20,136 nucleotides of DNA from a virus. The DNA is taken from positions 1 to 20,136 of the IMG/VR virus record IMGVR_UViG_3300024344_000168; one strand, 5' to 3'. A program made the translations under genes and the position numbers. Below are positions 15,581 through 19,758 of the stretch, piece by piece. The notes under the pieces are model-generated. The model had not been told where the DNA came from and ran no database searches. It worked only from the letters and a program-made list of their open reading frames with translations. How positions within the stretch are numbered: position 1 is the stretch's first letter; the number at the start of each line of letters is the position of its first letter.

Positions 15581-16231
15581 ATGGCTTACTTAAATGCAAA
15601 CATTCCTGTGACATATGCACAGATCAGAAGAGAATATCTTTACGATCTTAAAAAGCATCATGGGGAAGTGGAAGATTGCATTATCTTTGGCCTATCATCA
15701 ATTACAGGGCGCCCTATACTCTTTCATGCAATTATGGAAAATGGTGCTGTCTTTTATAGGTTGCCAATCTCTGCGTTTATACAAAGAGGTTTTAACCCAA
15801 AAGAAGTACCTGGGCGTCGACTTGATGAGTTGGAGTTGTGGAACTGTTTTAGTTATTATCCTGCTATCACTTCTTACGATATCTTAGACGGACAATCTGG
15901 TAAATACATTGGTAAAGATAAAAAATGGCACTATGGTGCTTATCTTTTCACAGTTGACTTTGCACATCCAGAGAGTAATATAGTAGACACAGATCATTCT
16001 GAAATACCGCACGAACACAAGTGCGCTCATATATTGGCGTTAGATGACGGCAATTATGCGGCACAGCCAAACAATAGATTAATTTGGGACATACCTTCAT
16101 TTACAGTTAGGGACGACATTCCTGACTGGAAAGTACAAACAAGTGAATGGAATGTTGAAGATACTCGTAAATGGAGAACAGAAGATACTGATAAATTTTT
16201 TTACGAAATTGAGGAAAAGAAAAATGACTAA
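15581..16231 (+). CDS. Unknown 216-aa soluble phage protein
   Basis: This protein has no signal peptide or membrane segment. It is rich in Tyr, Trp, Asp and His, with segments such as GRPILFHAIMENG (about 43-55), ELWNCFSYYPAIT and WHYGAYLFTVDF. A histidine-rich stretch HSEIPHEHKCAH (about 144-155) could bind metal, although no known catalytic signature is present. The C-terminus is acidic and Trp-bearing. There is no clear Shine-Dalgarno sequence; the ATG at 15581 lies 10 bases after the preceding stop. Codon use is visibly richer in C/G-ending codons than neighbouring genes, suggesting different ancestry or strong constraint. It overlaps the Cys-rich peptide gene by 8 bases. Its His-rich segment next to a possible metal-binding peptide may be coincidence. 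Confidence 0.82.
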   Translation: MAYLNANIPVTYAQIRREYLYDLKKHHGEVEDCIIFGLSSITGRPILFHAIMENGAVFYRLPISAFIQRGFNPKEVPGRRLDELELWNCFSYYPAITSYDILDGQSGKYIGKDKKWHYGAYLFTVDFAHPESNIVDTDHSEIPHEHKCAHILALDDGNYAAQPNNRLIWDIPSFTVRDDIPDWKVQTSEWNVEDTRKWRTEDTDKFFYEIEEKKND

Positions 16232-16367
16232 ATGTAAAGATTGCCATTGTGATTGCCACTGTAATGAAGAATTACACAGTCACCACTATGATGGGGATTT
16301 ATGTACATGCGAAAATTGTGAATGTAAAAATGGTAAAGACAAGGCAGAAGACAAAACGTATGAGTAA
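16224..16367 (+). CDS. Cys/His-rich metallothionein-like peptide
   Basis: This 47-aa peptide has nine cysteines (4, 7, 9, 11, 13, 27, 29, 32, 34) and five histidines. The N-terminal cluster is CKDCHCDCHC. The C-terminal cluster CTCENCEC has the Cys-x-Cys-x-x-Cys-x-Cys spacing seen in bacterial metallothioneins. A His/Tyr/Asp-containing linker separates the clusters, and a Lys/Asp/Glu tail follows. By family knowledge such a density of paired thiols would bind Zn, Cu or Cd in clusters; that this one does so is inference. The start at 16224 is supported by GAGG(AAA) upstream and an 8-base overlap with the previous gene. An in-frame extension to 16143 would lie wholly inside that gene. It overlaps the next secreted-protein gene by 8 bases. 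A zinc-ribbon-like regulatory peptide is the alternative. Confidence 0.8.
   Translation: MTKCKDCHCDCHCNEELHSHHYDGDLCTCENCECKNGKDKAEDKTYE
16242..16265 (+). repeat. 12-bp tandem duplication inside the Cys-rich peptide gene
   Basis: TGCCATTGTGAT is followed directly by TGCCACTGTAAT. The two units differ at two bases and encode Cys-His-Cys-Asp then Cys-His-Cys-Asn. The first metal-binding-like cluster seems to have grown by a short in-frame duplication. Confidence 0.75.
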
Positions 16368-17115
16368 AACTATGAACTATTATTTTACAGGAATATTAAT
16401 TGTATTATTATGTCTTTTAACTTTTTGCGCTGGACCAGCACATGCAGGTTCAACACAAACAAACACTTCAGGAAGTAATACTGCAATTGAAGGTGGATAC
16501 ACATCTACTGCTACAACTACATATCAATCAGGTTCTGAATCTACATCTACAACTAATAATACTACAAACTCAGACATAAGATCTTCACCACCATCAGCAT
16601 CAGCACCATCATATAATTCTATGACACAAGACGTATGTGCCGTTGGAGTTTCTGCAGGGGTTCAAACATTTGGTTTAGGTATTAGTGGTGGTAAACATAT
16701 AATAGATAAAAATTGTGAAAGATTAAAACTAGCAAGAATTTTAAATGACTTTGGTATGAAAGTTGCAGCGGTTGCAATACTTTGTCAAGATGAACGTGTG
16801 TTTGAATCAATGATACAAGCTGGCACTCCATGTCCAATAGATGGTAAAATAGGTAAAGAAGCAAAAGCATTATGGTCTAAGTATGATCACGAAAGACCTG
16901 ATTACGATATATATGTAAAACGTATGAAGGAACGAGAAAAAAAAGAAAAAGCAATAGCTAAGAAAAAAGCTCTTGAGGAAAAAAGAGCAGCTAAAGAACA
17001 AGCTAAAATGACAAAAGAATTTGAAAAAGTAGATTTAGACACAAAATTTAATAAAGAAGTAAATAAAAAAATTGAAGAAAAAAAGAAAGATATAAATTGG
17101 GAGTCACCTAAATAA
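16360..17115 (+). CDS. Secreted four-cysteine protein with charged coiled-coil tail, unknown
   Basis: This is a 251-aa protein. The start at 16360 is chosen because it gives a clear signal peptide: basic/polar N-terminus, hydrophobic core GILIVLLCLLTF, and a likely signal peptidase I cut after Ala-His-Ala (about residue 29). A Cys near residue 23 lacks a good lipobox. The mature protein has a Ser/Thr/Asn-rich, likely disordered stretch (30-85). A conserved-looking domain follows (about 88-170) with Cys93, Cys119, Cys142 and Cys158, including NCERLKLARIL and CQDERVF. The tail (about 185-251) is a long Lys/Glu/Ala-rich coiled coil. The cysteines could form two disulphides in the periplasm. I have the impression of similar sequences in other marine phages, without a known function. 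An envelope-modifying or virion-attached role is possible. Confidence 0.8.
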   Translation: MSKTMNYYFTGILIVLLCLLTFCAGPAHAGSTQTNTSGSNTAIEGGYTSTATTTYQSGSESTSTTNNTTNSDIRSSPPSASAPSYNSMTQDVCAVGVSAGVQTFGLGISGGKHIIDKNCERLKLARILNDFGMKVAAVAILCQDERVFESMIQAGTPCPIDGKIGKEAKALWSKYDHERPDYDIYVKRMKEREKKEKAIAKKKALEEKRAAKEQAKMTKEFEKVDLDTKFNKEVNKKIEEKKKDINWESPK

Positions 17116-17240: not shown

Positions 17241-17350
17241 TTTGGTTAACAATATTTATAGGAGCTAATGTATATGCGTATTTTGCTATTGACCGTTTTG
17301 CTGACAATATTAACCCTTACAACTTCAGCAGAAGAAATAACAACCGGTAA
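17237..17350 (+). CDS. Possible 37-aa membrane peptide overlapping the next gene
   Basis: An ATG overlaps the preceding stop (ATGA) and opens a 37-codon frame with a hydrophobic N-terminal helix (IWLTIFIGANVYAYFAI) and a polar Asn/Arg-rich tail. It runs 77 bases into the next gene in another frame, across that gene's signal-peptide region. Coupled starts and a membrane helix favour a real product. The long out-of-frame overlap and the hydrophobic T-rich nature of signal-peptide DNA argue for caution. Confidence 0.38.
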   Translation: MIWLTIFIGANVYAYFAIDRFADNINPYNFSRRNNNR

Positions 17351-19130
17351 CTTACTTCCTAATGCGGGAGATGGAGTAGATTGGAATTCTAGTTCTACAG
17401 ATCAAATTAATCCTGGTAGCTCTGGTTATGTATCTAACAATGCTACAATGAATGGATTTACAGTTACGTGTTCAGCTTCTCAATCAAATTGTGGCTATAA
17501 ATGGGGCGTAGGTGGTGATTTTGAAGTCACTGGTACTGCAACAATATCTAAAAACGATATTGCTTTAACTAACAATACTCGTACTCAAGACATGTTAGAT
17601 AATGGCATTACTCTTAATAATTATATAGATGTTGCGAACTGTGATCATGAAGCTGGTAATTGTGAAGGTGATACAGGAGCTACAGACTCTCATACAATTA
17701 CAATTAAAATAAAAGATTCAAGCGGTGCTGTATTATCTACTACTACTCAAACAAGAACAGACATAGATGGTTTTAAAGGAAATTGTAATGGTTATCCTAC
17801 CAATTCTTCAGCAGGATTATCTGCAGCGTGTGGTCAATACAATGATACAGTTGTATATAACAATCCAAATTCTAATAAAGTAGACTGGTCTTGGAGTGGC
17901 ACTGATAATAACACAGGAACTGCAAGCAGAGGCGGCCCAAATCTTTTAGGTGCTAAACTTACAATGACTTATGATAATACTGTATTAGATACAGAGACAT
18001 CAACAGCTTTAGACGATGTTGAAGAAACATTAGAAGACTTACAAGAAGAAGTTTTTGATGACATGGAAGAATTCTATTTTGAAGAAGAATACTTTACTTT
18101 TGATGAAGAGCCTCAATTTGAAATGGAAACAGAAATGGAAACTTTTACATTTACAGAAGAGTTTGTTGAAGAATTTTTTGATGAAATGTTTATGGAAGAT
18201 TCATTTTTTATGGATATGGAAGATGAAGGTATGTCATTTGAAGATGGCCCAATGATTGTATTTGCAAATGAAGAAATGATGGAGGAAATTTATGAAGAAT
18301 CGAACGAAATCGTTGCAACATTTTTACCGATGGTTTCTGAAGAAGAGGAATTTTCATATGAGGAATCGTTCGTTGAAGATGATGGACCCATATTTATGGA
18401 ACCAACCGAGAACGGAGAAGGATTTACTACAGAAACTTTTCAGGAAGAAGAGTTAATGGAAGAAGAGCCATCTATGATGACGGAAACATTTCAGGAAGAA
18501 GAGATGATAGAAGAAGAACCTGCTATGACAGAGACATTTCAAGAAGAAGAAATGATTGAAGAGGAAATGGCAGAAGAACCAACAGAAATGGCTGAAGAAG
18601 AAGTAATAGAGGAAGAAAACACTGAAATGGCTGAAGAAGAAGCTGTTGAAGAAGAACCTACTCAAATGGTAGAAGCAACTAATGAAGAAAAAAAAGAAGA
18701 AGTTAAAGAAAAGAAATCTGATAGCGAGTCTCCTAAAAAGTCCGCTGTTCAGACTAAGAAGTTTGCCAAACAAAAAAAGATACAACAGAAAAAAGCTATT
18801 ATTAAAAATCTTGCCAGAATAATGGATAAAGTTGATAAAGATATTAAAGACATATCTAAAAATTTAGCTGTTAAAAATATTATAAAAATGGAAGCAATGA
18901 CAAGCGAACAAGCGTCCTTAAATGCATACCAAAATACAGTGTTTTATGCGCCAAAAAACATATATTTAGACCAATTAAATATCTTTGATAACAGGCAAAT
19001 ATACCCAAATACTAATCTTGCAAGTTATACTCAAAATGATAAGATAGATGTTAAAGCACGTAAACTTCAAGAGATAAACTCTAGAAAACAACAATTGCTT
19101 TTAGAACTGGAGATATTAAAAAATGAGTGA
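17274..19130 (+). CDS. Secreted protein with disulphide-type N-domain and giant acidic repeat region
   Basis: This is a 618-aa protein. The ATG at 17274 is chosen over the in-frame ATG at 17268 because GGAG (17261-17264) is 9 rather than 3 bases away. A signal peptide (MRILLLTVLLTILTLTTSA) precedes a beta-rich, Thr/Asn/Gly-rich domain (about 20-235) with six cysteines in three close pairs, as expected for an exported, disulphide-bonded adhesin- or lectin-like fold. Residues about 240-475 are extraordinarily rich in Glu with Phe, Met and Thr, including repeats of TETFQEEEMIEEEPAM and TEMAEEEVIEEEN. A Lys-rich hinge and a helical C-terminal domain (about 500-618) follow, with YAPKNIYLDQLNIFDNR and a coiled-coil end. 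It may be an envelope or virion-surface protein, or bind cations. Function is unknown. It overlaps the next gene by 8 bases. Confidence 0.83.
   Translation: MRILLLTVLLTILTLTTSAEEITTGNLLPNAGDGVDWNSSSTDQINPGSSGYVSNNATMNGFTVTCSASQSNCGYKWGVGGDFEVTGTATISKNDIALTNNTRTQDMLDNGITLNNYIDVANCDHEAGNCEGDTGATDSHTITIKIKDSSGAVLSTTTQTRTDIDGFKGNCNGYPTNSSAGLSAACGQYNDTVVYNNPNSNKVDWSWSGTDNNTGTASRGGPNLLGAKLTMTYDNTVLDTETSTALDDVEETLEDLQEEVFDDMEEFYFEEEYFTFDEEPQFEMETEMETFTFTEEFVEEFFDEMFMEDSFFMDMEDEGMSFEDGPMIVFANEEMMEEIYEESNEIVATFLPMVSEEEEFSYEESFVEDDGPIFMEPTENGEGFTTETFQEEELMEEEPSMMTETFQEEEMIEEEPAMTETFQEEEMIEEEMAEEPTEMAEEEVIEEENTEMAEEEAVEEEPTQMVEATNEEKKEEVKEKKSDSESPKKSAVQTKKFAKQKKIQQKKAIIKNLARIMDKVDKDIKDISKNLAVKNIIKMEAMTSEQASLNAYQNTVFYAPKNIYLDQLNIFDNRQIYPNTNLASYTQNDKIDVKARKLQEINSRKQQLLLELEILKNE
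18429..18581 (+). repeat. Three tandem 16-18-codon repeats (TETFQEEE type)
   Basis: Units begin at 18429, 18480 and 18528. Each encodes Thr-Glu-Thr-Phe-Gln-Glu-Glu-Glu followed by Met/Leu, Ile/Met and a Glu-rich tail ending near Pro or Met. Synonymous differences between units (ACA/ACG, CAG/CAA, GAA/GAG) show the duplications are not brand new. Confidence 0.8.
18582..18659 (+). repeat. Two tandem 13-codon repeats (TEMAEEE type)
   Basis: Units begin at 18582 and 18621, with a degenerate third start at 18660. Each encodes Thr-Glu-Met-Ala-Glu-Glu-Glu, two variable residues, a Glu run and Asn or Pro. They follow directly on the longer repeats, so the acidic tract contains at least two repeat families. 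Confidence 0.8.
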
Positions 19131-19599: not shown

Positions 19600-19758
19600 A
19601 TGAAAAAAACATTGTTAATACTATCACTGTTAGCGTTTACTTCCTGCGTAGCAGTAGGACCTAAATGCACATACACGCAAGAAGGAACAAAAATTTCATC
19701 TTGGTTTTGGTTTTATAAAGATAAACCAGTTGACCTAGATAAAATGAATTGTAACTAA
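19600..19758 (+). CDS. 52-aa lipoprotein, candidate outer-membrane spanin
   Basis: This short ORF begins 1 base after the preceding stop. A lipoprotein signal is visible: Met-Lys-Lys, hydrophobic core LLILSLLAF and the lipobox-like Phe-Thr-Ser-Cys with Cys16 as lipidation site; position -3 is Phe rather than Leu, a tolerated variant. The mature part is only about 37 residues, with two more cysteines and aromatic residues (WFWFY). Small lipoproteins right after a membrane coiled-coil gene are typical o-spanins. It is coupled to the next gene as TAATG. Confidence 0.7.
   Translation: MKKTLLILSLLAFTSCVAVGPKCTYTQEGTKISSWFWFYKDKPVDLDKMNCN

Follow-up and report, generated by a model that had tools for sequence, protein, structure and literature searches.

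The window, by which we mean the whole stretch of DNA analysed here, is a linear virus record of 20 136 bp and a fragment of an HTVC023P-type pelagiphage; both its DNA and its gene order (primase, UvrD-type helicase, DUF3310 protein, DNA polymerase A and the phrog_3704 'PurM' gene) agree with this type. On its plus strand, an open reading frame (ORF) at 16224-16367 encodes 47 aa plus a stop, MTKCKDCHCDCHCNEELHSHHYDGDLCTCENCECKNGKDKAEDKTYE*, and the protein is acidic beyond its first residues. The translation bears out an earlier note on this sequence, which had counted nine Cys and five His in 47 residues with a CxCxxCxC cluster: the Cys stand at positions 4, 7, 9, 11, 13, 27, 29, 32 and 34, and the His at 8, 12, 18, 20 and 21. 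The potential ligands are arranged in an N-terminal cluster, C4-x2-C7-x-C9-x-C11-H12-C13 (16233-16262, plus strand), which is invariant in alignments A1 and A2 except that position 9 is either Cys or His, and a C-terminal cluster, C27-x-C29-x2-C32-x-C34 (the CxCxxCxC of residues 27-34; 16302-16325, plus strand), in which position 34 is Cys or His among relatives. The codon of the second conserved His, His18 (in LH), lies at 16275-16277 on the same strand.

Two plus-strand genes flank the ORF and each shares 8 bp with it, as expected from the overlapping operon described in the earlier note. The upstream gene (15581-16231) belongs to phrog_3704 and is called 'PurM' or 'ferredoxin' in public records; its stop overlaps the microprotein start in ATGACTAA. 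The downstream gene (16360-17115) encodes a predicted secreted protein of phrog_20531 (unknown function), whose start overlaps the microprotein stop in ATGAGTAA. Such 8-bp overlaps at both ends are the usual arrangement for coupled translation, and a Shine-Dalgarno-like GAGGA can be read in the sequence at 16211-16215 (plus strand), 8 nt ahead of the ATG and within the 3' end of the upstream gene. That the ORF is a genuine phage gene follows from its relatives at the same position. A chance ORF or artefact was rejected both for this reason and on the basis of Cys content: given a Cys background of 0.75% in 11 large ORFs of the window, at least nine Cys in 46 residues would arise by chance with P of about 6e-11. 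It should be noted that the labels of the upstream family, which comprises the window gene, HTVC023P gp44, and members in HTVC008M and many cyanophages, disagree: some records give PurM (phosphoribosylaminoimidazole synthetase) and RefSeq gives ferredoxin. A Pfam scan of the gene product matched neither PurM nor ferredoxin, and thus the real role of this protein looks unsettled; we use PurM below as a name only.

Part of the N-terminal cluster (16239-16262, plus strand) is encoded by two adjacent 12-mers, GATTGCCATTGT/GATTGCCACTGT, which specify DCHC-DCHC and match at 11 of 12 bases. This near-repeat had previously been taken for a 12-bp tandem duplication that extended one of the clusters. 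The repeat itself is present, in the N-terminal cluster, and the extension did not hold up: homologues keep the same cluster spacing throughout, while their corresponding 12-mers are identical at anywhere from 4 to 12 of 12 bases. A recent tandem duplication was therefore rejected, and the near-repeat appears to reflect a CHC-x-CHC motif written with few codons, not an expansion private to the window phage.

The upstream phrog_3704 gene was used as bait for relatives and yielded 80 IMG/VR loci, 65 of which had at least 500 bp downstream. A related Cys-rich gene could be identified within 500 bp downstream of phrog_3704 in 32 of these 65 loci (about half), which answers the proposal in the earlier note that the same locus be surveyed in related phages. 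A profile made from the alignment brought 80 further viral loci and at least 205 confirmed matches, and the total collected was 97 distinct proteins. All follow the pattern C-x2-C-x-[C/H]-x-C-H-C-x(6-16)-C-x-C-x2-C-x-[C/H], in which 6-16 residues, in most cases 11 or 13, separate the clusters; this linker holds a His in 92 of the 97. Since the collecting pattern had preset C4, C7, C11-H12-C13, C27, C29 and Cys or His at 32, invariance at these positions is partly by construction; the set fetched via the neighbouring gene shows the same ligand invariance. Positions 9 and 34 and the linker His had been left free. Position 9 was Cys in 66 and His in 31 proteins, and position 34 was Cys in 86 and His in 9, with 2 truncated. 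In alignment A2, C4, C7, C11, H12, C13, C27, C29 and C32 were invariant and H18 was nearly so.

Non-ligand residues between the ligands vary widely across the family; Cys codons switch between TGT and TGC and His codons also change silently, with the residue kept. The pN/pS ratio of the core was 0.31 in the class with an 11-residue linker and 0.46 in the 13-residue class, both somewhat low-biased as motif codons were fixed by how the set was selected. Taken together, these patterns indicate purifying selection on the core. The cysteine spacing, whose loss in homologues would have told against the earlier reading, is conserved. A divergent subgroup (L024, L040, L044 and L071) has the arrangement CxxC-NKM-CHC-x6-CxxCxC and a core of seven Cys and one or two His. 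In addition, the C-terminal tails look modular (for example, in L018:3823-3957, L042 and L088), with (R)TYxxxKDHxxDMSYENEVKYD and VIDDTGECESCQ found on different Cys cores.

The family is phage-borne and phage-specific. Only one confirmed match was obtained when 84 980 species genomes of bacteria and archaea were searched, and this sole match lies on a Pelagibacteraceae MAG/SAG contig on which the phage polymerase and PurM genes are also present; the same contig accounts for the single match among 397 SAR11-family genomes. Among phages, the family could be identified in at least three pelagiphage lineages. HTVC023P-type podoviruses carry it after PurM, or near capsid genes in L115 and its relatives of the same lineage; it also occurs in smaller pelagiphages such as HTVC106P, where an integrase gene is sometimes close by, and in an HTVC008M-like myophage (L127). 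The gp36 of cultured HTVC106P (QGZ18079.1), labelled 'hypothetical', is a member. A tblastn search of P0001 against INPHARED gave no match, a result made uninformative by low-complexity masking; helix-bearing relatives used as queries do retrieve HTVC106P. An unannotated copy is also present in HTVC023P itself (29072-29178; L002:4642-4748), where the reading frame KTFCFECHHDCHCDKICPKCSCYTCNNIEIKYYD follows PurM and has no clear start codon nearby. It is possibly a decayed copy, or is translated from an upstream ATG inside PurM.

Comparison with known families gave no assignment. The window protein and 30 members had no match in Pfam, NCBIfam, PHROGs or PDB; the weak values obtained were E 0.37 for a viral zinc-finger model with one member and a spurious E 6.5 for a nuclear receptor in the PDB profile search. 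The better zinc-ribbon match that the earlier note had named as a ground for dropping its reading did not appear in Pfam, NCBIfam or PHROGs. The profile search for bacterial metallothioneins that it had proposed was negative: PF02069 (Metallothio_Pro) was not matched at E up to 10 by the window protein or the 30 members, whereas an SmtA control, whose sequence this very match confirmed, was detected in the same scan at 4.5e-21. Alignment by hhalign with SmtA and with the genomic PF02069 protein P0007 covered only 12-13 columns, namely the CxCxxCxC stretch, which lies at the opposite end. The microprotein resembles SmtA/BmtA in size (45-60 aa), in having nine Cys and two likely His ligands (the SmtA cluster is Zn4Cys9His2), in the CxCxxCxC cluster and in being cytosolic. 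SmtA binds four Zn (PMC10612145). However, in SmtA the CxCxxCxC is N-terminal and precedes a zinc-finger part that has CxxxC and, further on, His, whereas in the microprotein family C-x2-C-x-C-x-CHC comes first and CxCxxCxC last. Because no profile match was found and the order and spacing of ligands differ from those of SmtA, the family is, as judged by these comparisons, not a member of the PF02069 bacterial metallothioneins. Thus, of the earlier metallothionein reading, the metallothionein-like ligand pattern stands and is conserved in relatives, and membership in PF02069 finds no support in the profile scan. By broad metallothionein criteria, the protein is small and Cys-rich, contains CxC as well as CxxC motifs, is poor in hydrophobic and aromatic residues, and keeps its Cys/His ligand positions (9 and 34 are only Cys or His; the others are invariant).

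PF02069 was found in none of 197 genomes of the host family and in 2 of 289 genomes of the host class. An origin from a host metallothionein was rejected on two grounds, the phage-borne nature of the family and this absence from the 197 host-family genomes. Some phages may carry metallothioneins of the established type: a hypothetical protein of 'Microcystis phage MaAM05' (L173; MW495066.1, 111775-111996) is a genuine PF02069 metallothionein (5.6e-12). The metadata of that record are odd, in that hospital wastewater is given as the source, and it carries fabI and engB, which calls for caution about its phage origin. A metallothionein has reportedly been noted in a cyanophage, and among the papers searched here none dealt with phage or viral metallothioneins. 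The genome paper on HTVC023P-type phages places purM and the curli genes among the auxiliary genes, and the words metallothionein, cysteine and zinc are absent from it (PMC9599517).

The best explanation as a whole, in which our confidence is evenly balanced, is that the product is a cytosolic microprotein whose nine Cys and two conserved His would hold a small d10 metal cluster, most likely of three to four Zn(II), and which would work like a metallothionein by taking up or buffering zinc (possibly Cu or Cd) inside the infected cell, with the gene moving among pelagiphages as an accessory gene. We infer metal binding, the type of cluster, the identity of the metal and the buffering role from sequence. 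A cluster with at least one bridging thiolate would be expected, because 11 ligands in 31 residues, the CxC pairs and the contiguous C-H-C preclude separate four-ligand sites. As His cannot bridge, residues 9, 12, 18 and 34 would act as terminal ligands; a Zn4 cluster held by 11 ligands requires five bridges, a number that the seven invariant Cys could provide. That the ligand positions accept ligands alone (Cys and His interchange at 9 and 34) favours the metal-cluster reading. The core is nearly without hydrophobic residues and metal-free AlphaFold models gave no confident fold (pLDDT 62 and 59 in two predictions), both as expected if metal drives folding. In L018 the same tail as in relatives sits on a different, His-free and Cys-only core, MTKCECEDCKCKCTGDCEDCKC, and such exchange of cores would, by analogy, be the plasticity typical of metallothioneins. 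Against a cluster, the ligands of the divergent subgroup (L024, L040, L044 and L071) are few enough for two separate zinc sites. Against a metallothionein, no likeness in sequence or structure to any metallothionein extends beyond the 12-13 CxCxxCxC columns, and neither metal-responsive regulation nor a metal gene was seen near the ORF. The neighbourhood suggests an adaptor over free buffering: there are amphipathic peptides, the same slot can hold zinc-ribbon peptides, and endolysins lie beside the fused form.

An adaptor is the alternative that deserves most attention, and we consider it possible, if doubtful: the Cys/His core would be a zinc-stabilised module, not a buffer, and together with an amphipathic helix it would form an accessory that is associated with the membrane in late infection or lysis and in which the helix (fused or encoded by an adjacent gene) binds the membrane and the zinc module binds a partner. 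In group 2 pelagiphages (alignment A3), the core is indeed fused behind an amphipathic helix (predicted at residues 2-24, pLDDT about 73) and a Lys/Arg-rich linker. HTVC106P gp36 is such a fusion (63% over 98% of L113, E 1e-9); it shares the Cys/His core of the window protein in a cultured pelagiphage, and differs in its N-terminal amphipathic helix and basic linker and in belonging to a lysis module. At most group 2 loci, the fused gene lies 3-15 bp from or overlaps a GH24 lysozyme, precedes an M15 endolysin by about 10 bp, or comes just after a GH24-holin-like pair (endolysin types were assigned by Pfam Phage_lysozyme and Peptidase_M15), and shared small genes and a holin-like gene accompany the endolysin and the fused core. 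The slot after PurM in HTVC023P-type phages points the same way: across 75 loci, the first gene encodes a W-rich cationic helical peptide in 38, a helix with a CxxC..CxxC zinc ribbon in 20 and an M15 endolysin in 3; the metallothionein-like protein is first in 7 of the 75, joined to a helix in 2 of those. However, the window copy has neither helix nor endolysin, its neighbours being PurM and the secreted protein; the L127 copy is likewise next to neither a helix nor an endolysin, the copies of L115 and its relatives lie near capsid genes, and no endolysin or holin adjoins the window, L115 or L127 copy. Moreover, the ligand density far exceeds the need of one structural zinc domain, and the likeness of free and fused helices is general and not proven homology. 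A further combination, which we regard as rather unlikely, is a two-part device in which a W-rich cationic amphipathic helix and a multi-metal Cys/His cluster, fused or split, act at the membrane late in infection, for example, to time lysis or disrupt the envelope, the metal cluster serving as a sensor or an anchor. If true, pelagiphages would possess an undescribed kind of component for lysis or takeover.

Two other roles can be weighed against the same evidence. A zinc-finger-like nucleic-acid-binding regulator, such as a late transcription or host takeover factor, would suit the small size, the CxxC and CHC motifs and the lysine-rich linkers of the fused form; it is improbable given that 30 members lack any zinc-finger match in Pfam, NCBIfam, PHROG and PDB, that the window protein is acidic outside its first residues, and that the CxCxxCxC spacing, to our knowledge, differs from those of zinc knuckles, ribbons and RING domains. 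The idea that the protein serves specifically to hand zinc to the zinc-dependent M15 endolysin seems less credible still. That enzyme adjoins the gene in L100, L118, L122 and L151 and is in the same module in L070, L075, L076, L084 and HTVC106P, but GH24 lysozymes, which need no metal, adjoin fused copies as often (GH24 at 13 and M15 at 5 of 29 loci without PurM in view). Because both kinds of endolysin occur beside the core, zinc supply to M15 was rejected as a general role.

Pelagiphages infect SAR11, which is among the most abundant bacteria in the ocean. A widespread, phage-only family of putative metal-cluster microproteins would represent a new type of auxiliary gene, in a setting where the sampled host-family genomes lack a bacterial metallothionein; annotation overlooked the family on account of size and composition. 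It connects putative metal binding with the small helical peptides of the lysis region, and HTVC106P gp36 offers a testable cultured example. If the microprotein is a zinc store, it bears on trace-metal handling by infected SAR11 cells.

Several related or neighbouring genes should also be mentioned. HTVC201P gp48 and HTVC010P AGE60314 are helix-only relatives, the latter with a short remnant Cys tail. HTVC027P gp12 occupies the same slot with the same 8-bp overlap after PurM and is likewise small and metal-ligand bearing, but has a plain CxxC..CxxC zinc ribbon, a W-rich tail and five Cys, with weak Pfam likeness to Lar/zinc ribbons. The W-rich cationic amphipathic peptides (18-33 aa; for example, MIKKLWKKIVNWLFSWQK in L017:1361-1417, and those in L031, L077 and L080) overlap the PurM stop by 8 bp, and a zinc-ribbon segment is joined at either end of the W-rich peptide in 20 of the 75 loci. 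They look like membrane-active peptides and might act in lysis. Finally, further downstream in the window, 17268-19130 encodes a predicted secreted protein of 620 aa with a very long Glu/Met/Phe-rich, repeat-like stretch and without a family match; next comes a predicted lipoprotein at 19600-19758.
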